A DNA stretch of 64,000 nucleotides from Bacteroidaceae bacterium (GTDB taxonomy: Bacteria > Bacteroidota > Bacteroidia > Bacteroidales > Bacteroidaceae). Location of the stretch: positions 32,882 to 96,881 of the forward strand of contig JAFUVE010000038.1 in assembly GCA_017483765.1 (NCBI GenBank), read 5' to 3'. Of this stretch, positions 3,332-24,784 are shown one piece after another (the stretch's first letter is position 1; each line of letters opens with the position of its first letter). A program made the position numbers and the translations under genes. Under the pieces are notes generated by a model. That model made no database searches and had not been told where the DNA came from. It saw only the letters and a list, made by a program, of their open reading frames with translations.

Positions 3332-4159
3332 ATGAGATGTAAAAACTGCGGATGGCCCAATAAGGCCGGATTAACCCAATGTACGAAATGTGGTGCTCCC
3401 CTCGACATGGAAAATTCCAACTCTTCTGGAGGTGGCTATTCACCCACTGTGAATGAGAACAACATAGGTGTTCGCCCTGGTCAGAGCCAATATGGTGGTG
3501 ATGATTCAGGCTTGAAAAAGACAATTTTGGAGAATGACGTGTTTGGTCCCCAGCAACCTTCAAATTCCTCGTCAGCTCCTGTGCAATCGTTAAGACAGTG
3601 TCCTAAGTGTGGGTATCCTCTGCGTGATGGCTCAGCAAAGTGTCCGAATTGCAACTATATTCCTAATGGTGTTTCCGAGGAATCACATGGTATGGTACAG
3701 CAACAGACTGGTCCGATTCAGCGGCGTCCAACCAGAAGGGATGTAGATGAAGAAGGTTCAGAATTACAATCCTCAACACAGCCTCAACAAAGAGAAGTAA
3801 GACATCATGCCGGATCTGCAAAGTTCAGCGGTACTATCAATCCTTATATGATGAATATGGAGATGGAACCTGTTTTCACTTTGAAACCATTGCAACGGGA
3901 GAATGAGAGAACGAAACCGGCAATTGTTGAGTTGGAAGGAAAGGAAGTGGTTTTGAACCGCGACAATACAGAGCCTAATAATCCCAGTATCACGTCAAAG
4001 GAACAGGCGGTTGTGAAATGCGAGAATGGCAAGTGGACAATCACGGACTTGTCGGAACAACACACGACATTTGTTTGTCCAAAACTTCCCGTTGAGTTGA
4101 AGGACGGCGACATTATTTTATTAGGAAACAGGCTGTTTGAGTTTCATATTCAAGATTAG
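3332..4159 (+). CDS. Double zinc-ribbon protein with C-terminal FHA-like domain
   Basis: A predicted soluble cytoplasmic adaptor of 275 residues. Zinc ribbons: C3/C6/C17/C20 (CKNCG and CTKCG) and C90/C93/C104/C107 (CPKCG and CPNCN). Residues 110-180 are a polar Gln/Arg-rich linker. Residues 195-272 have the strand pattern of an FHA domain, but the usual SRxH phosphothreonine motif is changed to SKEQ, so binding may be weak or altered. The segment LKKTILEND (61-69) resembles a threonine substrate site for FHA-linked kinases; this is inference. The ATG at 3332 was chosen because upstream in-frame sequence overlaps the LRR gene and would start with TTG. It is the first gene of the phospho-signalling run; the kinase gene follows after 27 bp. 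Confidence 0.8.
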   Translation: MRCKNCGWPNKAGLTQCTKCGAPLDMENSNSSGGGYSPTVNENNIGVRPGQSQYGGDDSGLKKTILENDVFGPQQPSNSSSAPVQSLRQCPKCGYPLRDGSAKCPNCNYIPNGVSEESHGMVQQQTGPIQRRPTRRDVDEEGSELQSSTQPQQREVRHHAGSAKFSGTINPYMMNMEMEPVFTLKPLQRENERTKPAIVELEGKEVVLNRDNTEPNNPSITSKEQAVVKCENGKWTITDLSEQHTTFVCPKLPVELKDGDIILLGNRLFEFHIQD

Positions 4160-4186
4160 TTGAGAGTGTTAAATTAAAATACCGTC

Positions 4187-5497
4187 ATGATAGAGCATAT
4201 AGAACGTTGCAACTTTTCTTCTGGCGACCTCATCGATAACACATATACTGTTGTGAAATTGCTGGGCGAGGGAACGTTTGGTGTCGTTTACAAAGTCGCA
4301 GACTTTAAAGGAAATCTCTACGCATTGAAACTGTTGCGATTATGGGAGGTACATCCGACAATTCGAGAAGGTCTGGTTCGCCGCTTTGATATGGAGTATG
4401 AAACAGGAAGGATTGACTCTCCTTACCTTGTTCATTCTATCAGCCATGGTTTCGTATGTGGCAACCCCTATATAGTCATGGAACTATGTACGGGTGGTGA
4501 CTTGGTTACTCAAAGCGAGACAAGAGAATTAGATTTGCCCGTTGTTGCCCGTCACGTGTTGTTAGGCCTAAAGGCATTGCATAGTTGCGGAAAGGTACAC
4601 CGTGACTTAAAACCAGAGAATGTACTTCTGAAAAGCGACGGAATATATGCCTTGACTGATTTTGGTATCTCAGGTGACCGCAATAAGCGGATGACCGAGA
4701 GTAATATTCTTGGAAGACCGAAACAAATATTCGGAACATATGCTTATATACCGCCAGAACAGGTGAAACCAAGGGGGCGTGATTCGACAGTACTTCCTAC
4801 AACAGATATATTCTCATTCGGTGTGATGATGTATCAGCTGCTTACCAATGAACTTCCATTTGGGCCTCTTGACGACGAGGGTGATTTGCCGGAATATCTC
4901 CGTAACGGAAGAAATGGAAATTGGAATAGGGTAGTGTTGAGGCGAAGAGAAGACTGGCAACAATGGAATGCATTAATAACTGGCTGTCTGCGACCAGACT
5001 TTCAGCAGCGTATCCAGTCTGTGGATGAGGCATTGGATTTAGTTCCGCTGCCTCCTAATGAGAATCATCCAGTTGAAGAAAGTCATGAAGACCAGAATCT
5101 GGGTTATCAAGTGAGAATAGTGAATGGAGTGTTGTTGCGTGTTATGCAAGGAGAGGACTACGGGAAGGTGTTTTGGCTTGACAATCTGATAAGTGATGAC
5201 AGAAGCATTCTGACCATGGGGCGCAGTGATTACGGAGTGAATAACGACATCAATCTGCATGAAACCGATAGCACATATGTTTCCCGTCACCATTGCACAC
5301 TTGAGCTAGACTATAGCATAGGTTCCTGGGTGATTAGGGATGGACAATGGGTTATGTTCGCAGGAAGAGGTGAGTGGCGAAATTCCACCAATGGTACGTT
5401 TGTCAACTCGTCTCAAGTGAATTCTAACGGCATGGTTTTTAACCCTGGTGATATTATTTCCATAGGTGAGGTGAAACTTAGAGCAGAAGCTTATTGA
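4187..5497 (+). CDS. Soluble Ser/Thr protein kinase with C-terminal FHA domain
   Basis: A Hanks-type kinase predicted to phosphorylate Ser/Thr on cytoplasmic partners. Kinase domain about 20-290: Gly-rich loop GEGTFG (27-32), ATP lysine K48 (ALK), alpha-C Glu near 70, catalytic HRDLKPEN (138-145), DFG (158-160), then GTYAYIPPEQ. The FHA domain, about 328-430, keeps TMGRSD, SRHHC and NGTFVN, all canonical phosphothreonine-binding positions. There is no membrane segment. It is the only RD-type kinase of the three in this island, so it can be activated by loop phosphorylation. It lies 33 bp before the FHA-protease gene and is probably in the same operon. Confidence 0.93.
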   Translation: MIEHIERCNFSSGDLIDNTYTVVKLLGEGTFGVVYKVADFKGNLYALKLLRLWEVHPTIREGLVRRFDMEYETGRIDSPYLVHSISHGFVCGNPYIVMELCTGGDLVTQSETRELDLPVVARHVLLGLKALHSCGKVHRDLKPENVLLKSDGIYALTDFGISGDRNKRMTESNILGRPKQIFGTYAYIPPEQVKPRGRDSTVLPTTDIFSFGVMMYQLLTNELPFGPLDDEGDLPEYLRNGRNGNWNRVVLRRREDWQQWNALITGCLRPDFQQRIQSVDEALDLVPLPPNENHPVEESHEDQNLGYQVRIVNGVLLRVMQGEDYGKVFWLDNLISDDRSILTMGRSDYGVNNDINLHETDSTYVSRHHCTLELDYSIGSWVIRDGQWVMFAGRGEWRNSTNGTFVNSSQVNSNGMVFNPGDIISIGEVKLRAEAY

Positions 5498-5530
5498 TAG
5501 CAGTATAAGATATAAATTTAACTTATCGTT

Positions 5531-7162
5531 ATGGCACAACCAAACAAAACTTATCGACAGACGCTGAGTGGCTCTATAGGAGCGGGAATGAGTTCTGTTT
5601 TCAAACCAAACAGTCGGCGTTATTATATTCTGGAACATAAGGTGACCAGCAAGTATCATAGGGCAGGTGAGGCACAGGAGATTATCGTTGATCAGATAGA
5701 ACTTGGCCGTGACTCGCATTGCCAGGTGAGGTTCGACGATCATTTCAGCACGGTGTCGCGCCATCATGCTGCCATTGTGAAGGATGGTGACGGGTGGAAA
5801 CTGGTGCAGGTCTCTAAAACGAATACAACCTTGCTCAATGGCCATCCTGTGAGAACGGAGTGGTATCTTCAGAACGGCGATGAAATACAACTGTCTATTA
5901 ACGGTCCGAAACTTGGGTTTATTATTCCTACTGGCAACAAAGCAACTGTTGGGTCCATCGGACTAACCAGAAGGTTGTCACTATTCAGGCAGCAGGCATT
6001 GAGACCTTATAAGAAGGCTATCATGTCGATGGCAGCCTTACTTGTGTTGGCATTGGGAATAGGTGGCTTTGTGATTTACAAGCAGGACCAACAGATTAAG
6101 GATAATTCAAAATTGTTGGCAGAGGCCAAGGAGGCTAATGCGAATAATGAGAAGCTGATAGAAGCCCAGAAAACAATTCTTGAGAATCAGAACGCAGAAA
6201 TAGATAGTATAAAAAAAATAAAACCCAGAGAAATAATAAGAGAAAAAACGGTTACTGTAACAGTTCCATCCCCTCCACAAAAAACAATTGTTGTACAAGG
6301 TGGTGGTCATGGAGGTGGAACAACAAAACAAACTGAAGAAAGGGGGAGGAATTCCAGTCCTGATCCTCTATCTACTATTTCGAAATGTTATCCATCTATT
6401 TATCATATTACAGCAATTCCTTACCTCAAAGGAAATGACGAACCTCTTAAAGATTTAGCATGGACTGGCACGGGATTTCTTCTAAGTGATGGCAAGTTCG
6501 TAACTGCTAGACACGTAACATCTCCGTATTATTCAAACGATTTTAGGGTAATAGATGGAATCATACATGTCAGTCCTAATGCAAATGACGGTTTAGTTCT
6601 TGCACAAATATTATATAATGTAGCAGCCCAATCAGGACATGCTCTTATAAAATTCCATTGTGTCAATGGCAGTGGACATTCCATTGATTTTACATCAGAT
6701 CAGGTCCAAGATGTTGGAACTCATGATGATATTCAAACGTTAGCAAAAACTATTCCATTAGACGAAGGAATGGAAATTCCAGCTGGAACAAAAATTCGTC
6801 ATGGAGCAACAGGCGCTTATGATTATTCTTACGTTCAGATTGGAGGAGGGGGTCTTAGGGCAAACAGAAATCTATCCACAAATCTCAAACAAGGCACAAA
6901 GTTATATGTGTTAGGATATCCACATAGTATCGGCAAAGGTCAGGAACCAGTCCTTTCGGAAGCTATATGTGCCCAAAATGGACTAAGTAAGGAGAAAGGT
7001 TCGCTTTCTGGTACGATAATGGCCTCAAATGACAATACAGAATCTGGAAATTCTGGAGGCCCTATTCTTGTATATGATAATGGTAATTGGGAGGTTGTTG
7101 CAATTGTATCAGGTGGTACTTATCAGAAAGGCCGTTTTGTTCCTATAAGTATGATTCCATAA
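5531..7162 (+). CDS. FHA domain - transmembrane - trypsin-like serine protease fusion
   Basis: A predicted inner-membrane protein. A cytoplasmic FHA domain (about 52-130, with LGRDSHC, SRHHA and LLNG) is joined through one membrane helix (about 163-183) and a coiled coil (185-235) to a periplasmic trypsin-fold protease (about 285-543). Catalytic triad candidates are H328 (TARHVT), D431 (YDYSYV) and S508 in GNSGGP. The Gly/His-rich linker near 256-263 is unusual. Codon use changes in mid-gene: the part up to about 6200 resembles the neighbouring kinases and the rest is clearly A/T-richer, which suggests that the protease domain was exchanged or acquired. Binding of a phosphorylated protein inside the cell could control proteolysis outside the membrane; that coupling is inference. 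Confidence 0.88.
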   Translation: MAQPNKTYRQTLSGSIGAGMSSVFKPNSRRYYILEHKVTSKYHRAGEAQEIIVDQIELGRDSHCQVRFDDHFSTVSRHHAAIVKDGDGWKLVQVSKTNTTLLNGHPVRTEWYLQNGDEIQLSINGPKLGFIIPTGNKATVGSIGLTRRLSLFRQQALRPYKKAIMSMAALLVLALGIGGFVIYKQDQQIKDNSKLLAEAKEANANNEKLIEAQKTILENQNAEIDSIKKIKPREIIREKTVTVTVPSPPQKTIVVQGGGHGGGTTKQTEERGRNSSPDPLSTISKCYPSIYHITAIPYLKGNDEPLKDLAWTGTGFLLSDGKFVTARHVTSPYYSNDFRVIDGIIHVSPNANDGLVLAQILYNVAAQSGHALIKFHCVNGSGHSIDFTSDQVQDVGTHDDIQTLAKTIPLDEGMEIPAGTKIRHGATGAYDYSYVQIGGGGLRANRNLSTNLKQGTKLYVLGYPHSIGKGQEPVLSEAICAQNGLSKEKGSLSGTIMASNDNTESGNSGGPILVYDNGNWEVVAIVSGGTYQKGRFVPISMIP

Positions 7163-7192
7163 TGAAACGATAAAATTGATTACTTTTATAAA

Positions 7193-8122
7193 ATGTTTTG
7201 TATGAAACGTGTATGTATATTTATATTTTGTGTAATTGGAACTATTAGTCTTCCAGCACAAAGGATTATAAAGTCTCTTGGACAGGAAATCACAGAGAAT
7301 GCAATCTCTGGCAGTGTTGTTCTTGTTCGCCAGTCGTATTATCTTGTTGACAAGACAACCGGTGAAGCATACGGACGTGATAACCGTGACGAATTTGGGT
7401 CAAACGTCTCGTTGGGTGTACTCACCACAGCTGGTGTTTTGCTGACAAACGAAGCTGCTAATCCTTGGAATTATGAGAAGGACTTTGACTTTAAACAATA
7501 CGAAAAGGATTATGCTCCTGAAATTATAAAGACAGAGATTAAGAATGTAGATGATGATCGCTCCTCCTTTTCCGTGCAATCGTCTGCCATGAAGCCAGAG
7601 GAGATGAATGGTGTGTTGCTGGGAAAAATAGAGATTTGCAATTCCTCAAAAATGGAAATCGACGCTGAGCCAGGTAAGAAAGATGGCTGGATTGTATGGT
7701 TTCTTAACGACGGAAGTTCTGATGATATTGAGAGCCAGCATATTTCCATGGAGTCTTATACCGCAAGTCTGGATATCACAAAGAAGAAAGACGTGTATGA
7801 AATCAACCAGCCCATAGATTCAGCGAGGGTTGTCGGTGGTATATACCTCAATCTGCAGTTTCTGGGCGGCGGGCACGTTGTCTACAAACTAGCTGGATAT
7901 ATGATCCGTCAGGATGGGAAGTGGGCAGTGAGGAAAATGCCGTTGATAAATAAGGAAAAAGAAATCAAGCCGGATGAGGGGGCCTTGCTGGACATAACCG
8001 ATGGCGGAACTGGTGGAGACACAATATTTACCCCTGTGAGAAAGCCGAAGGATGATGCACAGGATGTGGCGGAACCGTCAAAGATTTCACCAAAAGACAA
8101 ACCCAAGAAAAAACGTAAATAA
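7193..8122 (+). CDS. Secreted protein of unknown function in the kinase operon
   Basis: I do not recognise the family. The N-terminus MKRVCIFIFCVIGTISLPAQ (start at 7202; ATG 7193 adds three residues) is a Sec signal. The mature part is about 285 residues, mostly predicted beta strands, with a central acidic region (DVDDDRSS) and a highly charged Pro/Lys tail ending KPKKKRK. There are no Cys pairs and no membrane helix. Its stop codon directly abuts the ATG of the phosphatase gene (8122/8123), so the two are almost certainly co-translated. It may be a periplasmic partner or substrate of the protease or the LysM phosphatase. Confidence 0.7.
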   Translation: MFCMKRVCIFIFCVIGTISLPAQRIIKSLGQEITENAISGSVVLVRQSYYLVDKTTGEAYGRDNRDEFGSNVSLGVLTTAGVLLTNEAANPWNYEKDFDFKQYEKDYAPEIIKTEIKNVDDDRSSFSVQSSAMKPEEMNGVLLGKIEICNSSKMEIDAEPGKKDGWIVWFLNDGSSDDIESQHISMESYTASLDITKKKDVYEINQPIDSARVVGGIYLNLQFLGGGHVVYKLAGYMIRQDGKWAVRKMPLINKEKEIKPDEGALLDITDGGTGGDTIFTPVRKPKDDAQDVAEPSKISPKDKPKKKRK

Positions 8123-9892
8123 ATGGCAGACATACTGTTTAGGATGGCGGCGAAGACCGATGTTGGTCTGGTCCGCACGAATAATGAGGATAATTTTCAG
8201 GCTTCGGCTGACTTGTCGCAGTCGCCGATGCGGTGGGTGAACAACCAGCAGTATTCGTTGGGACCGAAAGGTGCGCTGTTGGTAGTGGCTGACGGCATGG
8301 GCGGCATGAACGCAGGTGAGGTGGCTTCTGAAATTGCCATCAACACGGTGATAGACATGTTCGCCCCTGAGAACATCACAGACGAGGTGGCCCGGTCGCG
8401 TCAGAGCATAGAGAAGTTCATGAAAGGCGTAGTAGTGGAGGCTGACACGCGTATCAAACAGCATGCCAAAGAGTTTCCAGAAAGCCGTGGTATGGGTACC
8501 ACAATTGTGATTGCATGGATGTTTGATGGACAAACTTATGTGACTTGGTGTGGCGACAGTCGGGCGTATATTTACAATCCGGCTACTGGGTTATTCCAAA
8601 TCAGCAAGGATCACAGCTATGTCCAGACCTTAATTGATGATGGCAAACTCACGAAAGAAGAAGCCTTCGACTTCCCTGACTCCAATATCATCACCCGCTC
8701 ACTATGCGACGGTGGTCCGAAAGCACAGCCGGAGTGCCTGACTATTCCGCAGCCTTTATGCAACGGAGATATCATTTTGCTCTGCTCCGACGGCTTGAAC
8801 GGGATGATTCGTGATGAGGAAATCGAGAAGATTATCACACACGAGCAGAATGACTTGAGCCTGCTGGTGGACCAGTTAATCAGCGCAGCTAAGGAAGCGG
8901 GGGGTGCAGACAATGTTACAGTGGCTCTGGCGCAGGTCACCTCTGGAGGAGAGAAATCCCAGCCCGGCAGGATTCCTTTCCAGAAGCGGACACGCCAGAA
9001 GAAGACATCCATGACCATTGACGATAACGGCACATCTTGCCTCAATGCCGATGACAGTGATGGGAAGTCTCATAAAGGACTGATCATTACGTTTGTATCT
9101 CTTTTGCTGCTCGCTTTGGCTGCACTGGCTGTCTGGAGATTCTGCCCTGACATCTTTGGAGGTAAGAATGATGGGACATCCATTACAAACAAAGATTCTC
9201 TTTATGTTACTCCACAGGACAACACGGAACCGGATGAGGCAGGGTCCGATGTGGAAGGCGAGAATGAACTCCCTGAGGATACAAAAGAAGAAAACGATGG
9301 CGAAGCCCGTGACGAAACCTCCACACAGCCGGCCGCGCCGTCCTCTCCAAAAATAAGTTTGCCGGTAAAGAAGTTGGATATTCCTGAAAAACTGAGACCG
9401 CAACAAAGAAATGTGAAGGACGAGGCGGCTGCCGGAGGGAAAAACTCGGTGACGCCCGATAATTCCCCCAAGAGACAAACGCCAGTTCAAAATCCCCAAA
9501 TAAAGGAAAAGCAAAATCCCCGGAGTGGCGAGGATTCCCCCTCTAAGCCTGTGTCTGAAACCGAAAGCACTTCGCCTCCCACGCGTCAGCTGCCTCCAGG
9601 GTTCACTCCCATTAACAAGGACGGACAGCCGGATGGGAAACCTGAAAAAACACCTAAGCCAGATGAAAGCTCCAAACCAAAAGGTGGTGATAATACCTTT
9701 ACACCGATTCCACGTAAGGGAGGTGAAAGTTCTGAGATGATAGAGCACGTTGTGAAAGAAGGAGAAACATTGTCGTCCATTCTGAACACTAATGACAAAA
9801 AAGTCATCAATGAGGTGGCTCGCTTGAATAAAATCAATCCAGACCATCTCGTTCCTGGCAGACATATTTTTATCTTAAAAAGAAAAAAATGA
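8123..9892 (+). CDS. PP2C-type protein phosphatase with membrane span and periplasmic LysM domain
   Basis: Predicted to remove phosphate from Ser/Thr residues made by the neighbouring kinases. PP2C domain 5-272 with metal-site motifs VADGMGG (55-61), GDSR (144-147), CSDG (221-224) and ADNVT (262-266), as in Stp/PrpC phosphatases. A membrane helix at about 319-337 is followed by some 200 residues rich in Pro, Glu, Lys and Ser, a likely periplasmic spacer. A C-terminal LysM domain (about 540-586, HVVKEGETLSSI to VPGRHIFIL) should bind peptidoglycan. Bacterial PP2Cs are usually soluble; one tethered to the wall this way is uncommon. The gene overlaps the next one by ATGA. Confidence 0.92.
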   Translation: MADILFRMAAKTDVGLVRTNNEDNFQASADLSQSPMRWVNNQQYSLGPKGALLVVADGMGGMNAGEVASEIAINTVIDMFAPENITDEVARSRQSIEKFMKGVVVEADTRIKQHAKEFPESRGMGTTIVIAWMFDGQTYVTWCGDSRAYIYNPATGLFQISKDHSYVQTLIDDGKLTKEEAFDFPDSNIITRSLCDGGPKAQPECLTIPQPLCNGDIILLCSDGLNGMIRDEEIEKIITHEQNDLSLLVDQLISAAKEAGGADNVTVALAQVTSGGEKSQPGRIPFQKRTRQKKTSMTIDDNGTSCLNADDSDGKSHKGLIITFVSLLLLALAALAVWRFCPDIFGGKNDGTSITNKDSLYVTPQDNTEPDEAGSDVEGENELPEDTKEENDGEARDETSTQPAAPSSPKISLPVKKLDIPEKLRPQQRNVKDEAAAGGKNSVTPDNSPKRQTPVQNPQIKEKQNPRSGEDSPSKPVSETESTSPPTRQLPPGFTPINKDGQPDGKPEKTPKPDESSKPKGGDNTFTPIPRKGGESSEMIEHVVKEGETLSSILNTNDKKVINEVARLNKINPDHLVPGRHIFILKRKK

Positions 9893-10728
9893 TGAATATA
9901 ACAATTGGAAGAAATCCGAAGAGCACTATCTCCGTGAGTGACAGTTATGACACGGTGAGTTATGACCATGCCGAGATATACATGGATGGAGTGAACATCA
10001 TGTTTATTGACCACAGCAGCAATGGCACAGTCATTAATGATCAGAAGATTCAGAATCTCACGGTGAGCATCTACCGCGGTGATGTAATCAAGCTGGCAGG
10101 CCGGTATCTGCTCAGCTGGGATGTGATAGAGCAGTATGTGGGGATACCCGGGCGGCCGACAGTCACGCGTAACAGCCATGGCGAGATAGCTTCTCCAGTC
10201 TCACCTGACAGAAACGGACGTGTCACGTGGAACAAAAATGAGGTAGTGACTCCTGGTCAGCGGTTAGCCGGCATCCCGTCGTATAACGATTATGAAAGAC
10301 GTGAGCCTGAGAGAAATGCGTGGGCTTCGCGTGAAGAGAACGACGGCCGGTTGTCTCCCTCCGAGGAGAAGGATATTGATGCTTGGAACTGGGGTGCATT
10401 CTTCTTCGGCTGGATTTGGGGTGTCTTCAACAAGGTTTACCTCTCGCTTGTTCAGCTTGTATGCAATGTTGTGATTTTTTTTGCCAATGCGAACGGCTTG
10501 TTGGCGATAGGCGCAGTCTTCCAGCTCGCCAGCCTCGGCGTTGCGATATGGATGGGCGTGAAAGGATCTCGTTTGGCTTGGAATCAGCATGCTTACGACT
10601 CGTTTGAGCATTTCAAGCGGGTGAGGCATGGCTGGAATATAGCTGCGCTGATCACCTTCTGTGTGCTGATACTCGTATCGATTCTCTCTCTCCTACTGTT
10701 TATGGATGTTATTTCCCGTCTGGTCTGA
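9889..10728 (+). CDS. FHA domain protein with C-terminal multi-pass membrane region
   Basis: An N-terminal FHA domain (about 1-85: IGRNPKSTISV, YDHAEIY, SSNGTVIND) reads phosphothreonine in the cytoplasm. SRxH is replaced by SYDHAE, so affinity is uncertain. A charged linker (85-155) leads to two or three hydrophobic helices beginning WNWGAFFFGWIWGVFNK, a pattern seen in DUF2628-like inner-membrane proteins. The start overlaps the stop of the phosphatase gene (ATGA at 9889; ATG 9892 is equally possible). It is probably a membrane anchor that collects phosphorylated partners; the exact role is unknown. Confidence 0.82.
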   Translation: MMNITIGRNPKSTISVSDSYDTVSYDHAEIYMDGVNIMFIDHSSNGTVINDQKIQNLTVSIYRGDVIKLAGRYLLSWDVIEQYVGIPGRPTVTRNSHGEIASPVSPDRNGRVTWNKNEVVTPGQRLAGIPSYNDYERREPERNAWASREENDGRLSPSEEKDIDAWNWGAFFFGWIWGVFNKVYLSLVQLVCNVVIFFANANGLLAIGAVFQLASLGVAIWMGVKGSRLAWNQHAYDSFEHFKRVRHGWNIAALITFCVLILVSILSLLLFMDVISRLV

Positions 10729-10744
10729 TAATAAGCTCCTCGTA

Positions 10745-13828: not shown

Positions 13829-13846
13829 TACAATCAATAAGACAAG

Positions 13847-15277: not shown

Positions 15278-15292
15278 TTTATAAAAACAGAG

Positions 15293-16993
15293 ATGAACAT
15301 GAAAAAGAAATTCATACTCAACGTCTTTCTGCTCATATCCTGTGGTTTGAGTTTGCATGCACAGACAGTGAAGTGGGCTGTCAGCCCATCCATGCAATAC
15401 CAAAAAGCAGAGGGGAATGTGATGAAAGGGAAAAATTCAGCAGGGAAAACCATGCTTATGTCTAGCAATGGAAAACTGCTCATCAACGAAACTTATGACA
15501 GTATCACTGATTTCTATAACGGATTTGCCCTTGCATTAAGCAGAGAGATTGACCGTTATAGGATTAAGGCCATTATCAATCAGCGGGATATGGAAGTTGA
15601 GACTGTGTCGGAAACTGTCTATGCTTCTCGCTTTCCCTATTTTTCTGAGGGAAAGATGCCAGTGGAAGGAGAAGAAGGATGGGGCTATCTGGGTACAGAC
15701 GGCAATATGGCTATACCATGCAGTTTCCAGAAAGCATATCCCTTCAGCAAGGGACTGGCCGTTGTAAGGCTGAAGGAAAAAGAATATTATATCAACTCTG
15801 ATGTCGACTATTTGAGTGTCAACACCAGTTATCCGCTAGTTCATGCATCCACTTTTAACGGTGATGAGGCATTGGTGATAACAGACAAGATGGTCTGTTA
15901 TTATATCAACCGTCAAGGTCGTGCCACAAAAGCACGTGTGAAAGCTTCCGACGTGGTAAGAAACTCCGACCATACAGTGGGTGAGCCGCTTCAACTCCCG
16001 CAATGTGAGAAAATTGAGGAGTTGCCACCTGTCGACCCTTCCTATCAGCTTTTTCAGGAGGGTGAATACTGGGGTTACCGTAAAGACGGGGACATTGTGG
16101 CTCCTGCTCAGTTTGACAAGGCAGAAGAAGTGCGTGGTGGCTATGCGTCAGTAGTATATAACGGCCAACCTGCCAGCATTTGTTTTGTCAATGGGAGCGT
16201 ATCTGCCAGCCTGCTCACCCCATCTGCCGATGTGAAAACCGATGGTTCACTTAGCAATCCACTGAGGTTTCAGGTGTTGCATCCATCATCGTTCCAAGAT
16301 TCCGACGTGCGATTGTATCTGATAGGCAGAAATGGAGATTTGCTTAAGACGGAACAGCAGAGCAAGACAAACAGCACGAGAACTTACATAGCCACAATAC
16401 CTGGATTGAAAGCAGGCTCTGATGAAAACGTATTGATGGTGGTTCTTTCTGACGGACTTATTCTGTGGAACGGGGTTGAGACATTACATGTCAATGCTGT
16501 AAAGTCGGGAAAGCCTGCCCCTAAACCAACCCCGTCAAGACAGACTCCCTCGAAGCCGAGTCCTAAGAAACCTTCTGTGGAAACACCTGAAAAAAAGCCC
16601 GTTAGGCAACTGGACAAAAACGAAAAAGCTATTGTTATCAACAAAACCAAAGAAAATACTCCGATAGTCCAGACACCTGTGAAAAAACCGGCAGACTTTG
16701 TGCTTTCACCTCCACGTGGAACGAACAAAAATAACAAGGCAAACCCGAAGGATGAGTTTCTAGTGAGTGTGAATGTCAGGAATATAGGAGAGGTTAAAGG
16801 AAATGTAGATGTCTATCTGACTGTCAATTCAAGTAGTTACGGAAAGAAAAACATCAGTGTTGGTCCAGGCAAGAATGCCGTGGCTATTTTCAAGATTCCA
16901 AATGTGAAAAAAGAGATGATGGCAAATGGTACGGCAAAGCTCTCGAACGGGAAGACAAGCTCCGGGAAACTTCATCTGCTGCCTTTCTGGTAA
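15293..16993 (+). CDS. Secreted WG-repeat protein
   Basis: A signal peptide (MKKKFILNVFLLISCGLSLHAQ; ATG 15299, or 15293 with two more residues) is followed by WG/KWG-type repeats in the first 300 residues (GWGYLGTDGNMAIPC, YWGYRKDGDIVAPAQFD), a beta-propeller-like fold found in exported Bacteroidota proteins. Residues about 400-460 form a Pro/Lys linker, and the last 100 residues look like an immunoglobulin-like CARDB-type domain (NVRNIGEVKGNVDVYLTV). It begins 15 bp after the Sel1-like kinase gene and is likely co-transcribed with it. It may be a periplasmic ligand for the kinase ectodomains; no enzyme motif is visible. Confidence 0.8.
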   Translation: MNMKKKFILNVFLLISCGLSLHAQTVKWAVSPSMQYQKAEGNVMKGKNSAGKTMLMSSNGKLLINETYDSITDFYNGFALALSREIDRYRIKAIINQRDMEVETVSETVYASRFPYFSEGKMPVEGEEGWGYLGTDGNMAIPCSFQKAYPFSKGLAVVRLKEKEYYINSDVDYLSVNTSYPLVHASTFNGDEALVITDKMVCYYINRQGRATKARVKASDVVRNSDHTVGEPLQLPQCEKIEELPPVDPSYQLFQEGEYWGYRKDGDIVAPAQFDKAEEVRGGYASVVYNGQPASICFVNGSVSASLLTPSADVKTDGSLSNPLRFQVLHPSSFQDSDVRLYLIGRNGDLLKTEQQSKTNSTRTYIATIPGLKAGSDENVLMVVLSDGLILWNGVETLHVNAVKSGKPAPKPTPSRQTPSKPSPKKPSVETPEKKPVRQLDKNEKAIVINKTKENTPIVQTPVKKPADFVLSPPRGTNKNNKANPKDEFLVSVNVRNIGEVKGNVDVYLTVNSSSYGKKNISVGPGKNAVAIFKIPNVKKEMMANGTAKLSNGKTSSGKLHLLPFW

Positions 16994-17045
16994 TCATGTA
17001 TTTAATTAGCTTAATTCATATTTGTTTAACTAAAATTCAAATTCA

Positions 17046-17687
17046 ATGAGAAAACTTTTGTTTCTTATGGTCATGCTGATGTCAGCAATGACCGTTTTTG
17101 CCCAAGACGATGACTTAGGCGGCATTCAGGACAAACGTTCCAACCTGGTGCAAATCGGTGTGAAGGCGGGAGCCAATTTCACAACCATGAGTAAGTATAA
17201 GGTTGTTGACCTCAACCAAAAGAGCGGCTTCGGCTATGAGGTGGGCGCAGTGATGACAGCTCACTTAGGAAAACGTCTCGGTGGTGATGCTGGTTCTGGT
17301 AGATGGGCAGTACAAATTGAGCCTACCTATGCCTATCACACCATCGGAACGGATTTCGATGACATCAAGCTGAGTTTTTTTGAACTGCCAATACTTGGCA
17401 AGTATTACATTCTGCCAACCGTCAACGTGGAGGCGGGGGTCAACCTTTGTGGCACGCTGAGCGCCAAACCGGAAATGCTGAGTGCGCAGGTCACTAATGT
17501 TGCCATTGGTGATATTAAGGGTTTTGATGTGAGACCTTTCATTGGTGTGAGCTATGAGGTGGATAAAAAGTTGTACGCCAGTCTTCGCTACAGCCTCGGA
17601 ACCTCTGACCTTGCAGGAAATTTCCCATGCAAGCTCAACACTTTGAACCTTACTGTCGGCTATCGTTTTGACATCTTTAAATTCTAA
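17046..17687 (+). CDS. Small outer-membrane beta-barrel protein (PorT/OmpW-like fold)
   Basis: 213 residues with a signal peptide (MRKLLFLMVMLMSAMTVFAQ). The alternating hydrophobic strands include VQIGVKAGANFTTMS, RWAVQIEPTYAYHTIG and KLYASLRYSLGTSDLAG. The C-terminus ends in Phe (YRFDIFKF), typical of barrels assembled by the BAM machinery. The pattern fits the outer-membrane beta-barrel family OMP_b-brl_2, which includes PorT-like proteins. It is co-directional with the kinase run, 52 bp downstream of the WG protein and 29 bp upstream of the lipoprotein gene. It could provide the outer-membrane end of the signalling chain. Confidence 0.78.
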   Translation: MRKLLFLMVMLMSAMTVFAQDDDLGGIQDKRSNLVQIGVKAGANFTTMSKYKVVDLNQKSGFGYEVGAVMTAHLGKRLGGDAGSGRWAVQIEPTYAYHTIGTDFDDIKLSFFELPILGKYYILPTVNVEAGVNLCGTLSAKPEMLSAQVTNVAIGDIKGFDVRPFIGVSYEVDKKLYASLRYSLGTSDLAGNFPCKLNTLNLTVGYRFDIFKF

Positions 17688-17716
17688 TTATTTACTCAAA
17701 AATATTCTATATAGCT

Positions 17717-18736
17717 ATGAAGAAGATTTATATAATGACGTTGGCCATGTTCGGCCTGCTCCTGTCGTCATGCGAGAATGACGACATCATGATTTCAAGC
17801 ACCATCAATTTTACGGTTGACCCGTCGAATCTGGCCTCCACTTTGGCTGAGGCTGAGGTGAATCCTGGTGAGTTGGAAGTACTGGACAGTGACTGCCGTC
17901 TTGTTGTGGATCTTTTGATTTACAACGACAACGGTGAGTTGGTGGAAAGTGCCACCGAGAAATTCAGCAATTATGATGTGAGAATGAAATATGCAGCCAA
18001 AAAGGTGACAGAGGGAAATTACTCTGTTCTGGCCATTTCTCATATTGAGAATCTCTCTGACAAAATATCCTACTGGGAAATCAAAAACACGCAGAAGTTG
18101 GAGGGTCTTCAGGTGGTTGATGCTGGCTATATCGGCGGTGAGAACAATATTTTTGGTATGGCATTCCAGAATGTGACCTTTGGTGGGGCTTCTCAAGACA
18201 TACAGCTGAATCTTACTCCTGTCGGGTCGATTCTCCGTGTAGAATTCTATAATGTTCACTTTGGCTGGACGATTGCAGATAATCCAGTGACAAGTTATGA
18301 GCTTGTGACCAACAAGGTTTCCGACTCGTTTATGTTCAGCCGGACAGGACAGACTAATGTGCAGGCTGACAGCAGAGACGACTACAATTGGAGACTGTGT
18401 TTGCTGGATGATTTGGACGATCATACTTATGACAATATCTATGCTTACGAATATGTCTTGCCAATGAACAATGTAAGAGTGGTGTTCAGAGGATATAACG
18501 ATGACGGTCAACACGACGAGTTCGGAAGCCAGTACACCTATAACTTCCAGTCGGGAAACAACTACTATGCCGCCTTGGACATCGCCAGCGATGAATCGGA
18601 ATTTGGAAAAATCACTCCTTCATCCGCTTCGCCACGTAAAGGACGACAGGTCAGAGTTAACCAGCCAAGAAGACTTCGCTCCTTGCCTACTTACTATAGT
18701 TTGAAGGATCTGAAAGAGGCCGCTCATCTGAAGTAA
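17717..18736 (+). CDS. Fimbrillin-like (FimB/Mfa2-type) lipoprotein, tentative
   Basis: A lipoprotein signal peptide with lipobox LLSSC (Cys at about residue 19) is followed by an acidic start (ENDD), a common surface-export mark in Bacteroidota. The mature 320 residues are beta-rich, with a segment of the type LVVDLLIYNDNGELVESAT and a later strand pair (LRVEFYNVHFGWTIAD), resembling the FimB/Mfa2 anchor-subunit fold. No conserved cleavage site for fimbrial polymerisation is clear. It is the last gene before a strong hairpin at 18791-18824. Identity as a fimbrial anchor is a guess from fold pattern; lipoprotein status is firm. Confidence 0.6.
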   Translation: MKKIYIMTLAMFGLLLSSCENDDIMISSTINFTVDPSNLASTLAEAEVNPGELEVLDSDCRLVVDLLIYNDNGELVESATEKFSNYDVRMKYAAKKVTEGNYSVLAISHIENLSDKISYWEIKNTQKLEGLQVVDAGYIGGENNIFGMAFQNVTFGGASQDIQLNLTPVGSILRVEFYNVHFGWTIADNPVTSYELVTNKVSDSFMFSRTGQTNVQADSRDDYNWRLCLLDDLDDHTYDNIYAYEYVLPMNNVRVVFRGYNDDGQHDEFGSQYTYNFQSGNNYYAALDIASDESEFGKITPSSASPRKGRQVRVNQPRRLRSLPTYYSLKDLKEAAHLK

Positions 18737-18790
18737 TGTGAGATTTCATGTTGGGCACGAAAGTGTTCTGACCGAGATAACTGCCAATCA

Positions 18791-18824
18791 CTTGAATCCG
18801 CACTATTTTAGGTGCGGATTCAAG
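18791..18824 (+). terminator. Perfect 13-bp hairpin after the lipoprotein gene
   Basis: CTTGAATCCGCAC (18791-18803) and its exact complement (18812-18824) flank the 8-nt loop TATTTTAG. There is no T tract after it, so it may end transcription weakly or protect the mRNA 3' end. It separates the signalling block from the second LRR gene. Confidence 0.65.
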
Positions 18825-18862
18825 AATTATCATCAATTCATCAACTAAGGATTCTTAACATT

Positions 18863-21109
18863 ATGAGAGAATTTTACAAAAAACTGTTTACGTTTGTCAT
18901 ATTTCTTCTGTTATCTTCATTTCATGCAAGAGCTTATGATTGTGTTGTTGACGGAATTTACTATAATCTTCATAGTGACTCCTATTATGAACAATATTTA
19001 GGTTCCGATGGAGTATTAAGGGGGAGAAATGTGAAATCTTTATGGGCAGAAGTTGTTTCTGGTAATTATTCTGGCTATGTCACTATTCCTGATAGTATTA
19101 TTTATAATGAGGATGTCTATCTTGTGAAAAGTATACATGATAGTGCGTTCTTTGCTTGTACTGATTTATATTCCATTGATATTTCCGATAATGTCACAAG
19201 CATTGGTCAAAGCGCTTTTCGGGGGTGTACAAGTCTGTCTACTGTCACAATTCCTAAAAATGTTCCCTTTATAAATCGATATCTTTTTGAAGGATGTTCA
19301 AGTTTGTCTTCTGTAAATATACCAAATGGTGTTGTTTGGATTTATGATTGTGCTTTTGAGAATTGTTCTGCTTTGTCGTCTGTCATAATTCCTGCAAGTG
19401 TCAATCACATAGGATGTGCATTTAAAAATTGTTCTGCTTTAACTTCCATTTCTATTCCTGATGGTGTTTTAACAATAGGTCCTGAAACTTTTAGAGGTTG
19501 TGTGAGTCTTGCTTCTATTGATATTCCTGGAAGTATTCAAAATATAGATAGTAGGGCCTTCCAAGAATGTTCATCCTTGATGGCTGTCACTATTCCAGAT
19601 GGAATAATAAGAATAAGTGAATATACATTTTTCAAATGTTCCAGTTTGACTTCCGTCATGATTCCAGATGGAGTGACAATGATTGACGAAGCAGCTTTCA
19701 GCAAATGCGAAAGCCTTACTTCTATTGTGATTCCAGGCACAGTGAAAACGATTGGTCGGGGCGCATTCAGCGTTTGTTCCAATCTAAGTGACGTCCAGAT
19801 TTCAAATGGTGTGGAAAACTTGGAATATGGTGCTTTTAATAAATGCTACAGCCTTTCGTCTCTTGTCATCCCTAATAGCGTGAAGAGCATCGGGGAATAT
19901 GCTTTCAACGGTTGCAGATGTTCAATTATCTGCCTTAATGAAACACCGCCTTCAGCAGAAAACTCTTCATTCAATTACAATATGACTGCTTATGTGCCTG
20001 CTTCTGCAATTGAATCTTACCGAAATGCAGACGGTTGGAAAGAGATGGAGATAAAGGAGGTTACTGCGGAAATGATAGGAGCACCGGAAATGAATGTTAC
20101 GGCTACGGCTGGACCTTCACATCTGTTTGTGACTGGCGGATATGGCAACACTAGCATAACGGTAACAGAGTTTGGTTTTGAAGGTTATGTACCGTTTGAG
20201 GATGAGATTGAGGTTTACGGACTCGACCCGGAGACAGAATATGCTTTTACTTTCTATATTGACACAAAAGAGGCTGGACGGATAAAAAAAGAATGTACGT
20301 TCAGAACAAGTGAGCTGACAATAAACACAACAGATCCGAAGGTCGTGAGTGTTGAAAATGGCCGCAGTAATGTGATTGTGTCAGTTCAGACCAATTTGGA
20401 CGACAATGAAAAAAACGTTGGGTTTGAATGGCGCAGGGAAGACGCCCCCGAGGCCCTTCGTTGGAATAGTTCCAAAATTCCTCTTTATGACGGCATGATG
20501 GAGGGATATATCCGTAATGTGCAGGCTGATAAATTTTGGTGGGTACGCCCATATTATCAGTCTGACTCTGGCAATTATTACTATGGTGAACAAGTTATGT
20601 GGGATGCAAACGATATATCCTATTGTGAGCCAGTAGTTCACACATCGAAGAAAGTGAAAATATCAAAGAACATCGCCACGGTTGAGGGCTATGCGCTCAG
20701 TGGAACAGAAAATATCTCTTCCCAAGGTATGAAATATTGGAAAGCGACGAAAGAAGGCGGTGAAGCCAGTGAAAAGCAGAGAGACGATGCCGCAGAGGTG
20801 AAGGCTTCGGGATACAGCGAGGTGATGACGGTGGATATAAAAGGTTTGGAATATGATGCCACCTACAATTACGTGGCATTCGTGATGACAGCCGACGGCA
20901 AAACCTACTATGGTGAGACACGTGTGTTCACCACAGAGCCAAGTCCTGCGGATGTGAACGTTGACGGCATTGTGGACATCAGTGACATTGTGGCGGTGAT
21001 AAACCATATCGCCGGAACCAACGACTATAGGCGTGCGGATGTCAATGCGGATGGGTTGGTTGACATATCCGACATTGTGGCGATTATCAATGCTATAGCG
21101 TCTATGTGA
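18863..21109 (+). CDS. BspA-type LRR surface protein with Fn3-like middle and two dockerin repeats
   Basis: The start at 18863 gives a signal peptide (MREFYKKLFTFVIFLLL to ARAYD). The upstream in-frame GTG at 18812 lies in the terminator stem and is rejected. Residues about 70-380 contain some 12 LRR_5 repeats (for example IPDGVLTIGPETFRGC). Residues 410-690 hold two or three beta-sandwich segments of fibronectin III type (ESEYAFTFYIDTKE-like strands). The C-terminus has two dockerin-type calcium loops (VDGIVDISDIVAVIN and ADGLVDISDIVAIIN). The LRR part is A/T-rich; the Fn3 and dockerin parts are richer in G/C, pointing to a mosaic origin. It is probably surface-exposed. Confidence 0.87.
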   Translation: MREFYKKLFTFVIFLLLSSFHARAYDCVVDGIYYNLHSDSYYEQYLGSDGVLRGRNVKSLWAEVVSGNYSGYVTIPDSIIYNEDVYLVKSIHDSAFFACTDLYSIDISDNVTSIGQSAFRGCTSLSTVTIPKNVPFINRYLFEGCSSLSSVNIPNGVVWIYDCAFENCSALSSVIIPASVNHIGCAFKNCSALTSISIPDGVLTIGPETFRGCVSLASIDIPGSIQNIDSRAFQECSSLMAVTIPDGIIRISEYTFFKCSSLTSVMIPDGVTMIDEAAFSKCESLTSIVIPGTVKTIGRGAFSVCSNLSDVQISNGVENLEYGAFNKCYSLSSLVIPNSVKSIGEYAFNGCRCSIICLNETPPSAENSSFNYNMTAYVPASAIESYRNADGWKEMEIKEVTAEMIGAPEMNVTATAGPSHLFVTGGYGNTSITVTEFGFEGYVPFEDEIEVYGLDPETEYAFTFYIDTKEAGRIKKECTFRTSELTINTTDPKVVSVENGRSNVIVSVQTNLDDNEKNVGFEWRREDAPEALRWNSSKIPLYDGMMEGYIRNVQADKFWWVRPYYQSDSGNYYYGEQVMWDANDISYCEPVVHTSKKVKISKNIATVEGYALSGTENISSQGMKYWKATKEGGEASEKQRDDAAEVKASGYSEVMTVDIKGLEYDATYNYVAFVMTADGKTYYGETRVFTTEPSPADVNVDGIVDISDIVAVINHIAGTNDYRRADVNADGLVDISDIVAIINAIASM

Positions 21110-21173
21110 ACAACTAGTTAGAACATGGTGTGTTCTAACATTATTAAGACAATAACTTAAAAAACTCAATCAA

Positions 21174-21644
21174 ATGAAAAAAATGTTTCTTTTGTTATTG
21201 ATGAACTTAATTGTGTCATCAATGAGTGCTCAGAGCACTGTTCATGTTTTCGCACATTCACTCAGTAATGTGGAAGTGAAGATGATGAAAAATGGTGAGT
21301 ATGTGTTTGATATGAGAGGTGAGTTGAGAAAAACGTTGAAACCCACCAGTAGTGTGAAATATCCTCTTTACACTTATTCTCCTGCTTACAGGAAATGCAC
21401 ATTTAAGGAAGATGGTAAAGTTCTGTTGTCTATAGACGTGGAACACACAAACTGTACAACGGGAGATGTCACACATTATGCAGATGAGATTCAGTTAAAT
21501 CTCTCTCCCGGATCAACGCATTATGTGTATCTTACCAACAAAGGGCTTTTCAATCTCCAGTTAAAGGAAATTACGGAGAAGGAGGCAAACAAACTATTGA
21601 AAGACAAGAAGATGGTTGTGCTTGACGAATACGTGGAGCCATAA
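21174..21644 (+). CDS. Small secreted protein of unknown function
   Basis: 156 residues: signal peptide MKKMFLLLLMNLIVSSMSAQ, then a single beta-rich domain without Cys pairs or known motif. Segments such as NVEVKMMKNGEYVFDMRG and STHYVYLTNKGLFNLQL suggest a small beta sandwich, similar in appearance to DUF2846-like periplasmic proteins; this is not firm. It lies between the LRR-dockerin gene (64 bp upstream) and the MORN gene (47 bp downstream) on the same strand. Confidence 0.65.
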   Translation: MKKMFLLLLMNLIVSSMSAQSTVHVFAHSLSNVEVKMMKNGEYVFDMRGELRKTLKPTSSVKYPLYTYSPAYRKCTFKEDGKVLLSIDVEHTNCTTGDVTHYADEIQLNLSPGSTHYVYLTNKGLFNLQLKEITEKEANKLLKDKKMVVLDEYVEP

Positions 21645-21691
21645 GGATTATACGTCAATCATCATGATGAACAATAAAAACATGGACAGAT

Positions 21692-22771
21692 ATGGCAGAT
21701 AAAACGAAAACGCTCGCTTTGCTGTTTCTTTCAATGTTGATACTCTCCACGCTCTCAGCCCAAAATTTTGATTTCCGTACTTTGTTTGCCAATGCCATGC
21801 AGACACACAACGAAAAAGTGGGTAAGGCACTGTTCAAGGGGCAGATATTGAAAGGAAAACGTAATGGGATGGGGATAATGGCGTATAAAAACGGCGATTA
21901 TTACATTGGTGACTTCTGCCGCGATAAAATCACCGGCTTTGGGATGTTTCTTTCTGATGTTGGAAGGATTGATAAGTGCGACGGATGTTATGTGTATGTG
22001 GGCAACTGGAAAGACGGTAAGAAATCCGGCATGGGACGTTGCTACGATAACCAAGGTCAGCTGATTTATTCAGGACGGTTCAGCGATGACGCTCCGTCGG
22101 AACAATATCCGACAGCGGATGTTGATAATTCCAAATCGTTTACTGTGTCGATAAGCGAAAAAAAGAATTGCTACGTGGGAGAGACGGAAGGAGGTGTGTT
22201 GAACGGCTATGGTGTGTTTGTATTCAACGACGGTAACATCTGGATAACCCAAATGAAGGATGACAGTCAGACCGGTGTCGGTTTGCTGGTATATGCGAAT
22301 GGTGAGTGGGCAACGGTAAATTATAAGAACGATGAACTTACAATCATCAGTACATCAGAATATTACAGAACAGTGGATGATAAACGTAAGGCGATAACAA
22401 GAGCGGCAATCAAGGGTGCTCTCACGGAATTCTCACATGCAGTCAATACTGCTTCTACTTTGGTAAGAGGAGGTACTGATATTTCTAGTGACAGACAAGA
22501 TGTTGCCGAAGTTGACGAGAATGACGTGTCATCGGTGGGCGCTGGTTCGTCATCCAAAAAGCGTTGTTCTGAATGTGGGGGTACCGGAAAATGCTCTGGG
22601 TCACATGGATGCCGTGGCACAAGGAACTGCTACTGGTGTCAAGGTGATGGCTTTACAAAGATAGTGGCAGGTGAAAAAGTGAAATGCGCCAAGTGTGGTG
22701 GTACCGGTAGTTGTCAGTATTGCCATGCAACGGGTAAATGCAGGAAATGTAATGGCACAGGTGTTCTCTGA
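21692..22771 (+). CDS. Secreted MORN-repeat protein with C-terminal DnaJ-type cysteine-rich zinc finger
   Basis: A signal peptide (MADKTKTLALLFLSMLILSTLSAQ) precedes at least four MORN-like repeats in residues 45-210 (KGKRNGMGIMAYKNGDYYIG, NGYGVFVFNDGNIW, TGVGLLVYANGEW). The last 75 residues hold four or more CxxCxGxG-type clusters (CSECGGTG, CYWCQGDG, CAKCGGTG, CRKCNGTG), as in the zinc domain of DnaJ. An exported protein with a DnaJ-like zinc finger is unusual; it may act on unfolded or reduced proteins in the periplasm. It ends the plus-strand block, only 2 bp from a converging ATPase remnant. Confidence 0.82.
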   Translation: MADKTKTLALLFLSMLILSTLSAQNFDFRTLFANAMQTHNEKVGKALFKGQILKGKRNGMGIMAYKNGDYYIGDFCRDKITGFGMFLSDVGRIDKCDGCYVYVGNWKDGKKSGMGRCYDNQGQLIYSGRFSDDAPSEQYPTADVDNSKSFTVSISEKKNCYVGETEGGVLNGYGVFVFNDGNIWITQMKDDSQTGVGLLVYANGEWATVNYKNDELTIISTSEYYRTVDDKRKAITRAAIKGALTEFSHAVNTASTLVRGGTDISSDRQDVAEVDENDVSSVGAGSSSKKRCSECGGTGKCSGSHGCRGTRNCYWCQGDGFTKIVAGEKVKCAKCGGTGSCQYCHATGKCRKCNGTGVL

Positions 22772-22773
22772 CT

Positions 22774-22914
22774 TCAATCATATTCTTCTACAATGGTGGA
22801 CTTGCCTACTCGTCGGGCACCTTTGACCAGAAGTGCCGTTTTTCCGTCACGCTCCTGCTTCCATTGGCGCATACGGTCATAAATCTTTCGCTTGAAAATT
22901 ATTATATCGGGCAT
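22774..22914 (-). pseudogene. N-terminal remnant of an AAA ATPase (DUF4143 family)
   Basis: Reading from ATG 22914 gives 46 residues including IIIFKRKIYDRMRQWKQ and the Walker A segment LLVKGARRVGKST, then IVEEYD and a stop. Intact members of the family, such as those at 36878 and 47235, run 380-440 residues. The remnant stops directly after Walker A and 2 bp from the MORN stop codon, so the rest was deleted. The upstream iterons are still present. Confidence 0.8.
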
Positions 22915-22950
22915 CTTTTACCAGTGTTTTGGATGAAAATTAAGTAAAAA

Positions 22951-23035
22951 TTCCAGAATCCCCAAATTTAATTAGGTAAAATGTTCCAGAATCCCCAAAT
23001 TTTTATATCTAGATAGTTCCAAAATCCCCAAATTT
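22951..23035. repeat. Three iterons at exact 33-bp spacing upstream of the ATPase remnant
   Basis: Near-identical copies of TTCCAGAATCCCCAAATTT start at 22951, 22984 and 23017 (the third has TTCCAAAATCCCC). The 33-bp period is close to three helical turns, which puts all copies on one DNA face. This looks like an operator array for a DNA-binding protein rather than random repeats. Read from the remnant gene, they lie 37-121 bp upstream of its start codon. Confidence 0.75.
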
Positions 23036-23376: not shown

Positions 23377-23407
23377 GAAAAAAGCCCTGCCGGGAATGGC
23401 AGGGCTA
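23377..23407 (-). terminator. Intrinsic terminator of the CE12 operon
   Basis: Read on the minus strand, AGCCCTGCC and GGCAGGGCT form a 9-bp stem over a 6-nt loop, followed by a T run. It lies about 30 bp after the esterase stop codon. Confidence 0.85.
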
Positions 23408-23437
23408 TTGTGTGATGAAGATTTCGCTTTATTTTGT

Positions 23438-24775: not shown

Positions 24776-24784
24776 TGTGTTTAG

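Follow-up and report, generated by a model that had tools for sequence, protein, structure and literature searches.

Does a run of kinase, phosphatase and FHA genes around a protease gene form a single signalling unit, and what could such a unit do? We address this question in a stretch of 64,000 nt (referred to as the window) of Bacteroidaceae bacterium (assembly GCA_017483765.1, 69.9% complete), which covers forward-strand positions 32,882–96,881 of contig JAFUVE010000038.1. A sequence-only reading of the window had counted three kinases, one PP2C phosphatase and four FHA domains on one strand within about 12 kb. All of them score above the Pfam cut-offs (31.7 bits for Pkinase, 20.7 for FHA and, for the LysM domain of the phosphatase, 20.9), and the genes lie on the + strand in a span of 11.9 kb (3335–15277). 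The conserved core is a set of five genes (3335–9892), and positions 9889–18736 are a variable tail of kinase and surface genes. As far as we searched, the gene set is a real, conserved and undescribed phospho-signalling operon. The earlier statement that this is not a described system agrees with the literature searched, in which no description of the gene set was found, subscription journals and preprints being outside its coverage.

A conserved gene set around an FHA-trypsin protein

The core opens with a zinc-ribbon protein carrying a degenerate FHA domain (3335–4159; Zn_Ribbon_1, FHA 27.5 bits) and a soluble RD-type Ser/Thr kinase with an HRD motif and a C-terminal FHA domain, referred to as kinase-FHA (4187–5497; Pkinase, FHA 50.1 bits). 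The third gene (5531–7162) encodes an FHA domain (54.6 bits), one predicted transmembrane (TM) helix (residues 162–185) and a trypsin-like protease domain (Trypsin_2) on one chain, which we call FHA-trypsin. Next come an exported partner without known domain, which starts with a signal-like segment (7193–8122), and a PP2C phosphatase joined through a predicted TM segment (residues 316–346) to LysM (8123–9892; PP2C_2, LysM 26.3 bits). Behind the core lie a frequent accessory, namely an FHA protein (46.9 bits) with three predicted TM segments near its C-terminus (9889–10728), and two putative receptor kinases matching Pkinase. One of them has a predicted TM segment at residues 287–310 and a long repeat tail (10706–13828), the other a predicted TM segment at residues 286–317 and a helical-repeat-like tail (13847–15277). 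Pkinase scores of the three kinases are 123.3, 146.9 and 147.5 bits in gene order. The genes abut or overlap, as had been noted: 8122 and 8123 abut, the gene starting at 9889 overlaps the phosphatase gene by 4 bp, and the gene starting at 10706 overlaps its neighbor by 23 bp.

FHA-trypsin alone served as the query and anchor of all homologue searches. Short peptide patterns applied to an 84,980-species collection gave 223 confirmed relatives; the best 80 of these are our named loci, all but one titled as Bacteroidota, and owing to this choice the counts describe the closer relatives. Gene maps were built for 93 loci and the window. The duplicates L032 and L045 were removed together with the G393 stretches L036/L037 (G393 has one TAA inside its FHA-trypsin match), and L044, L046, L047 and L049 were excluded as weak matches. 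The synteny set thus holds 89 loci and the window (n = 90). It is partly non-independent: in three cases, two loci come from a single assembly (L053/L057, L066/L070 and L088/L128), and L055 and L061 are near-copies that are both included.

In these 90 loci, the same-strand neighbors of FHA-trypsin are PP2C in 87, kinase-FHA in 85, zinc-ribbon-FHA in 80, the exported partner in 77, a further kinase in 75 and another FHA protein in 32, the last class pooling the type of 9889–10728 with other FHA proteins that have no zinc ribbon. The exact order zinc-ribbon-FHA, kinase-FHA, FHA-trypsin, exported partner, PP2C is found in 62 loci, and the next commonest order, which lacks the exported gene only, in 10. 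Where a part is missing, the run often reaches an end of the locus, left or right (zinc-ribbon-FHA 7/10, kinase-FHA 3/5, PP2C 3/3, exported partner 8/13). The median gap between recognised neighbors is 11 bp, and 86 of the 423 gaps are zero or negative. The sequence-only reading took the genes as one unit and named co-occurrence in relatives as the test; the recurrent order and neighbors across 90 loci refute chance clustering.

The gene set is sporadic among genomes. FHA-trypsin matched 6 of 101 genomes, including the window's own and one weak match (G081), and none of the 12 other genomes of the same genus, whose assemblies are 56–89% complete. Across the order it matched 19 of 393 genomes, 12 of them with clear full-length matches as judged from the match table (the window's own and G393 included). 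In a phylum-wide profile search of 395 genomes, G711 and G670 matched strongly besides the window's own genome; weak partial matches were numerous, and 63 genomes reached E ≤ 0.001. Bacteroidales genomes repeatedly carry TM kinase, PP2C and FHA-TM-trypsin together, and elsewhere in the phylum two genomes have this combination without the exported gene. Carriers identified by record title are Bacteroides sp. 519, Barnesiella sp. An22 and Palleniella intestinalis strain PINT.

Two kinase classes with exchangeable tails

In eukaryotes, RD kinases are typically activated by activation-loop phosphorylation, and non-RD kinases are a mark of plant immune receptors. We called kinase motifs by regular expression, which left 9 of 192 kinases unassigned, and read the HQD, i.e. 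non-RD, motif of the kinases 10706–13828 and 13847–15277 directly in the sequence. Across the loci, kinase-FHA proteins carry HRD in 81 of 85 cases, the other four having no motif match, and 83 of 85 have no TM segment. The non-FHA kinases over 330 aa show HQD in 71 of 99 and a TM segment in 97 of 99; for all non-FHA kinases these values are 74 and 97 of 107. HQD occurs in none of the 36 control kinases (six without a motif match), which were taken from other islands, including the divergent FHA-trypsin loci L163–L168, and from the rest of the window's own genome; in the two parts of this control, HRD is found in 14 of 30 (four unmatched) and 2 of 6 (two unmatched). The deep-branching loci L160 and L161 show the same HRD/HQD split as the module. 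This division would fit a relay from a receptor kinase to a soluble kinase.

The tails of the non-FHA kinases vary. Of 98 tails, FGE-sulfatase matches 9, RHS_repeat 7, BACON 3, MORN 3 and Sel1 2, and several TPR models match up to 4 each, besides some further domains. The tail profile of 10706–13828 matched 14 open frames across the locus set, and the tail type of 13847–15277 also occurs in L052, L054 and L125. Four exported modules had been assigned to the window, of which the protease and LysM are borne out by Pfam. The labels 'YD-repeat' and 'Sel1-like' for the two kinase tails have no Pfam match up to E 0.01, and they rest on resemblance to those relatives whose tails match RHS_repeat or Sel1.

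The PP2C has a predicted TM segment in 83 of 87 cases, and the three PP2C motifs are kept in 68, 73 and 82 of 84. LysM is present in 7 of 83 PP2C tails, the window's included. The Bacteroidales neighborhood of TM kinase, PP2C-LysM and FHA-TM-trypsin, for which a search had been suggested, does recur as a set, with LysM as an occasional part of it.

An exported accessory family, defined by single linkage in a grouping that also took in the window's MORN gene, is present in 56 of 90 loci (70 genes). Among the 69 members scanned, BACON matched 31, Sel1 10 and OMP_b-brl_2 6.

Protease, FHA readers and exported partner

The catalytic triad of the trypsin-like domain is largely invariant in our alignment (H328 92/92, D431 92/92, S508 90/92), and a TM segment between FHA and protease is predicted in 90 of 90 proteins. 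Against PDB sequences, the trypsin part matched only Deg proteases at E 1e-4, with weak and short matches. Like HtrA/DegP, the protein keeps the triad residues of the trypsin fold in a domain predicted to lie outside the inner membrane. Unlike HtrA/DegP, it has a presumed cytoplasmic FHA reader on the same chain, and no PDZ domain was matched with Pfam.

The residues that read phosphothreonine (GR, SxxH, N) are present in the window FHA domains of the genes starting at 4187, 5531 and 9889, and the domain of the first gene (3335) is degenerate (NR, SxxQ). In the protease FHA, G59, R60, S76, H79, N98 and N103 are invariant in 90 of 90 proteins. The kinase-FHA keeps the Arg in 82 and the His in 84 of 85. 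In zinc-ribbon-FHA, the Arg (78/80) and Ser (75/80) are kept, 69 of 80 proteins have Gln in place of the SxxH His, and most have lost the Asn. The pattern suggests that the other three reader types can bind phosphothreonine and that zinc-ribbon-FHA may serve as a scaffold.

Among the 74 exported-partner proteins longer than 240 aa, 73 start with a signal-like segment. The exported partner had no match in Pfam, NCBIfam or PADLOC, and only one match of chance level (E 0.35) in PDB sequences.

Optional proton channel and type VI secretion genes

In 15 of 93 loci, and in the deep loci L160 and L161, the module is accompanied by a MotA/TolQ/ExbB protein and a partner. The MotA_ExbB match has E 2.3e-14 in L055 and 6.4e-11 in L161. 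The partner has an invariant segment SFLDLL near its N-terminus, and an Asp in its N-terminal TM-like segment is invariant in 7 of 7 rows. In Bacteroidales loci, the pair mostly stands directly upstream of FHA-trypsin, and the two genes belong to the same-strand run in 14 and 13 loci. The MotA_ExbB domain and the partner's Asp resemble ExbBD, TolQR and MotAB channels; unlike in these, the partner contains a coiled coil, and Pfam gave no ExbD match for it. A profile of the ExbD-like partner found nothing in the window's own assembly, which is 69.9% complete, and gave strong matches in the positive controls G076, G087 and G711. On our tree (of the 'quick' type, with SH-aLRT support only), the proton-channel label requires at least 12 changes, which is compatible with an ancestral pair that was lost many times as well as with repeated exchange.

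A link to the type VI secretion system (T6SS), which the sequence-only reading had not foreseen, is seen in some relatives. TssC (PF17541) is found in 7 of 101 genomes of one set and in 4 of 30 of a second, in which 16 genomes represent 16 of the 80 named loci and three (G303, G644 and G664) have no module. Among the 31 module-bearing genomes searched (27 of the second set plus G055, G076, G086 and G087), four have TssC, and it is absent from the other 27, the window's own incomplete assembly included. In G305, TssC ends at 58041 and kinase-FHA starts at 66349 of the same contig (~8 kb); in G387, kinase-FHA ends at 15518 and TssC starts at 24853, again on one contig (~9 kb). In Palleniella intestinalis PINT, TssC ends at 67152, ClpV ends at 69931 and zinc-ribbon-FHA starts at 82860 (~16 and ~13 kb), as measured over two fetched stretches whose overlap was verified. 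In G842 (L055), TssC sits on another contig (642 kb). In G025, of the same family as the window, a divergent set of FHA-FHA-trypsin, PP2C, kinase-FHA and zinc-ribbon-FHA is interleaved with TssC, TssD, VgrG and ClpV genes. We also notice in this T6SS locus (L162/L163, G025:C1:326000–365999) a DUF4280 protein with a C-terminal Ntox46 match.

A present/absent site in the genome

The close sister species G012, whose flanking GH2 protein is 97% identical to the window's, allows a comparison of the site. Window positions 1–389 and 23260–24793 align (96%) to 11110–11499 and 13641–15172 of L197 (G012:C132). The segment between them, about 22 kb (390–23260), is missing at the orthologous G012 site, where instead copies of the 53-bp repeats lie with another ATPase gene (by eye). 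These repeats stand in the window at 553–883, near the left edge of the segment (6.2 tandem copies, 92% matches). Gain of the segment in the window's own lineage is the simpler reading. GC content at third codon positions (GC3) is 0.29–0.59 in the cluster versus 0.63–0.79 in five right-flank genes; the contig has another low-GC stretch (GC3 0.36) further to the left, so that composition alone is weak evidence. No exact direct repeats of 12 bases are shared between the flanks 390–1764 and 22771–23400. Carriage by phages or plasmids was considered and set aside, since FHA-trypsin, the only query used for this, had no match among 50,697 phage records and 72,556 plasmid records. At the right edge, the minus strand holds an ATPase gene remnant (22771–22917; by eye, a Walker-A-like stretch and then a stop), and beside it is a 33-bp tandem repeat (22938–23035).

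Proposed mechanism

We propose that a receptor-kinase relay governs a membrane-anchored periplasmic protease, with a probability of roughly 50%. From the parts, their motifs and order, the predicted TM segments, the conservation and the plug-in tails, all of which are read from the sequences, we infer the orientation, the direction of the signal, the phospho-sites, the substrate and the output. The whole would be a self-contained Ser/Thr phospho-relay across the inner membrane. The HQD membrane kinases, with their exchangeable extracytoplasmic sensor tails, would sense a surface, wall or periplasmic cue and act on the soluble HRD kinase-FHA. The FHA domains of kinase-FHA, of the protease and of the TM-FHA protein would read the resulting phosphothreonines, with the zinc-ribbon protein and its degenerate FHA domain as a putative scaffold. 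The protease may then be recruited or clustered, dependent on phosphorylation, through its cytoplasmic FHA domain; this would switch the trypsin-like domain across the membrane, which would process an exported client, for which the core exported partner and the adjacent variable WG, BACON, TPR or barrel proteins are candidates. The membrane PP2C would reset the relay. An ExbBD-like proton channel may be coupled to it in some lineages, and in a few lineages a nearby T6SS would be a likely client. The earlier suggestion that the genes sense the wall or surface, or drive surface display, is possible.

A more specific form of this idea is tentative, and we regard it as rather doubtful: an inside-out proteolytic switch, in which cytoplasmic phosphothreonine read by FHA would act through one membrane helix on a trypsin-like protease at the outer side of the inner membrane, served by a plant-like pairing of non-RD receptor kinases with an RD cytoplasmic kinase; sensors and clients would be exchangeable, and a proton channel optional. 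If true, bacteria would have a further, distinct class of transmembrane signalling, and a protease gated from the cytoplasm would give them a new route to act on their own envelope. The papers found say little about Ser/Thr phospho-signalling in Bacteroidales. The operon is a defined syntenic set with strain-named carriers, in which receptor kinase, reader and protease are testable together, and the nearby T6SS of a few lineages offers a measurable output.

Several observations weigh against the relay with a governed protease. HRD occurs in 19 of the 107 non-FHA kinases, so that the two-class rule is not strict. The proteases of L128 and L129 (both titled Tannerella) have no catalytic Ser, although the rest of the site is kept, and are possible pseudo-proteases. 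Conservation of the exported partner family is weak (mean column identity 18%); no recognised partner is seen in five loci, and no non-FHA kinase in three, whose runs stop short of the locus end, and neither is therefore strictly required. LysM and the other wall or surface modules are not constant, and with LysM in so few tails wall binding is no constant feature of the PP2C. The TM segments are predicted from hydropathy only.

Alternative explanations

The module might instead be a threonine-phosphorylation regulator of T6SS, similar to PpkA, PppA and Fha, acting remotely where no T6SS gene adjoins. According to PMC12607579, PpkA is likewise a TM kinase that has a periplasmic part and acts on Fha, and the pathway (PpkA-PppA-Fha, with TagQRST) shares with the module a cytoplasmic catalytic part, which is our presumed orientation for the module kinases, together with a PP2C antagonist and an FHA reader in one operon and trans-envelope sensing. 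Three of the four TssC-bearing module genomes (G305, G387 and PINT) have TssC near the module on one contig, and the divergent set of G025 is interleaved with T6SS genes. However, G305 and G387 are sister rows in the tree, so that independent linkages are few, and 4 of 31 module genomes versus 7 of 101 relatives at large is not clearly more in a comparison of plain counts. The window module was not seen with T6SS structural genes (no TssC match in its 69.9% complete assembly), and it adds a conserved FHA-TM-trypsin, a membrane-anchored PP2C, the soluble kinase-FHA, zinc-ribbon-FHA and the exported partner to a pathway whose own feature is that phosphorylation of Fha or TssL triggers assembly. 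With TssC missing from 27 of the 31 module genomes, we rejected T6SS control as a general role and consider this regulator quite unlikely; a role of T6SS as client would be limited to some lineages at best, and for the window it is not visible. A second alternative is a housekeeping relay for the wall or surface glycans, comparable to Gram-positive PknB/Stp, with the trypsin domain as a minor quality-control protease. The LysM of the window's PP2C and the BACON, FGE-sulfatase and repeat tails would suit it, and the PP2C scores just below the cut-off of Stp1_PP2C_phos (216.3 versus 230 bits), the nearest NCBIfam match among the ten proteins of 3335–17687, for which every listed match is below the curated cut-off. 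On the other hand, the kinases are far from the PASTA-type PknB/Stk1 (PknB_PASTA_kin 110.9–129.2 versus 450 bits; no PASTA repeats in the Pfam scan), LysM is infrequent, and the sporadic presence (12 clear full-length cases in 393 genomes, none in 12 other genomes of the genus) fits poorly with a housekeeping role, which makes this explanation unlikely.

In a third alternative, a phage-defence or conflict module similar to KKP or MADS, kinase activation would lead to self-damage and the protease would be the effector. PMC11341870 describes KKP as two kinases, one with FHA, opposed by PP2C in one operon, as in the module. The window kinases resemble MAD6 and PD-T4-6 models, the trypsin part weakly resembles RT-Protease_XI models, and both the patchy presence and the present/absent site are what a defence module could show. 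The kinase matches are only those of the generic domain, and the MAD6 scores (107.8–124.5 bits) are far below the cut-off of 460 bits; PADLOC, run on the same ten proteins, gave kinase-domain and weak trypsin-domain matches only. KKP, as described there, has a cold-shock-domain kinase, PfkA, whereas no cold-shock domain was matched in the Pfam scan of the module, most of whose non-FHA kinases have a TM segment and which includes a protease and surface proteins. In the scanned tails and accessory genes, the matches are to surface and repeat domains and not to nucleases, and FHA-trypsin is absent from the phage and plasmid records above. We therefore hold a defence role very unlikely.

Other systems share elements with the module. 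eLife 52696 (PMC7159879) describes vWA-linked systems with kinase, PP2C and zinc ribbon in one neighborhood, and peptidase-based systems with trypsin-like peptidases. Unlike vWA/TerY-type systems, the window genes have no vWA, MoxR or STAND domain matched by Pfam. No trypsin-co-occurring (Trypco) or effector-associated (EAD) domain was matched in them either, in a Pfam scan that may not model all such domains.

Genes around the module and related islands

Downstream of the kinases, the tail of this lineage consists of an exported WG-repeat protein (15293–16993, + strand; WG_beta_rep), an outer-membrane beta-barrel protein (17046–17687, +; OMP_b-brl_2) and a lipoprotein-like exported protein whose leader has a lipobox-like Cys by eye (17717–18736, +). 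After 18736 follow, on the same strand, an LRR_5 gene with a dockerin-like end, a small exported gene and a MORN gene. The sequence-only reading had listed secreted WG, barrel, lipoprotein, LRR and MORN genes on this strand, which is where they lie; the WG, barrel and lipoprotein trio recurs only in L054 and L125 (WG also in L052), and the LRR and MORN genes (to 22771) are outside the conserved unit. BspA-type LRR proteins with C-terminal dockerin-like stretches border the module on both sides (1764–3272 and 18863–21109), the first scoring under the Dockerin_1 cut-off.

Consensus scans for promoter-like sites (54 versus 36.7, sd 5.9, in shuffles) and terminator-like sites (18 versus 14.8, sd 4.4) were not used. 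The promoter scan relied on the sigma-70 consensus, and Bacteroidetes promoters are unlike the sigma-70 type.

The window's own assembly has ten kinase matches (nine among those listed, three of these in the cluster) and six FHA matches, four of them in the cluster. Distant members of the phylum have divergent clusters of FHA-trypsin, PP2C and kinase (L164 and L165, from G644 and G664, L167 and L168); in the 20 kb covered there, no recognised zinc-ribbon-FHA or exported partner was seen. L076, titled Clostridia bacterium, pairs in the tree with the Bacteroidales locus L104 (end branches 0.09 and 0.17), and its module is likely a misbinned contig or a recent transfer. A second island type occurs in the window's own genome and in relatives (L176, at G000:C78, L169–L171 and L179). 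It has FHA genes, mostly together with PP2C or kinases, gave no protease match, and encodes a protein that by eye starts like a LytTR-type DNA-binding domain.

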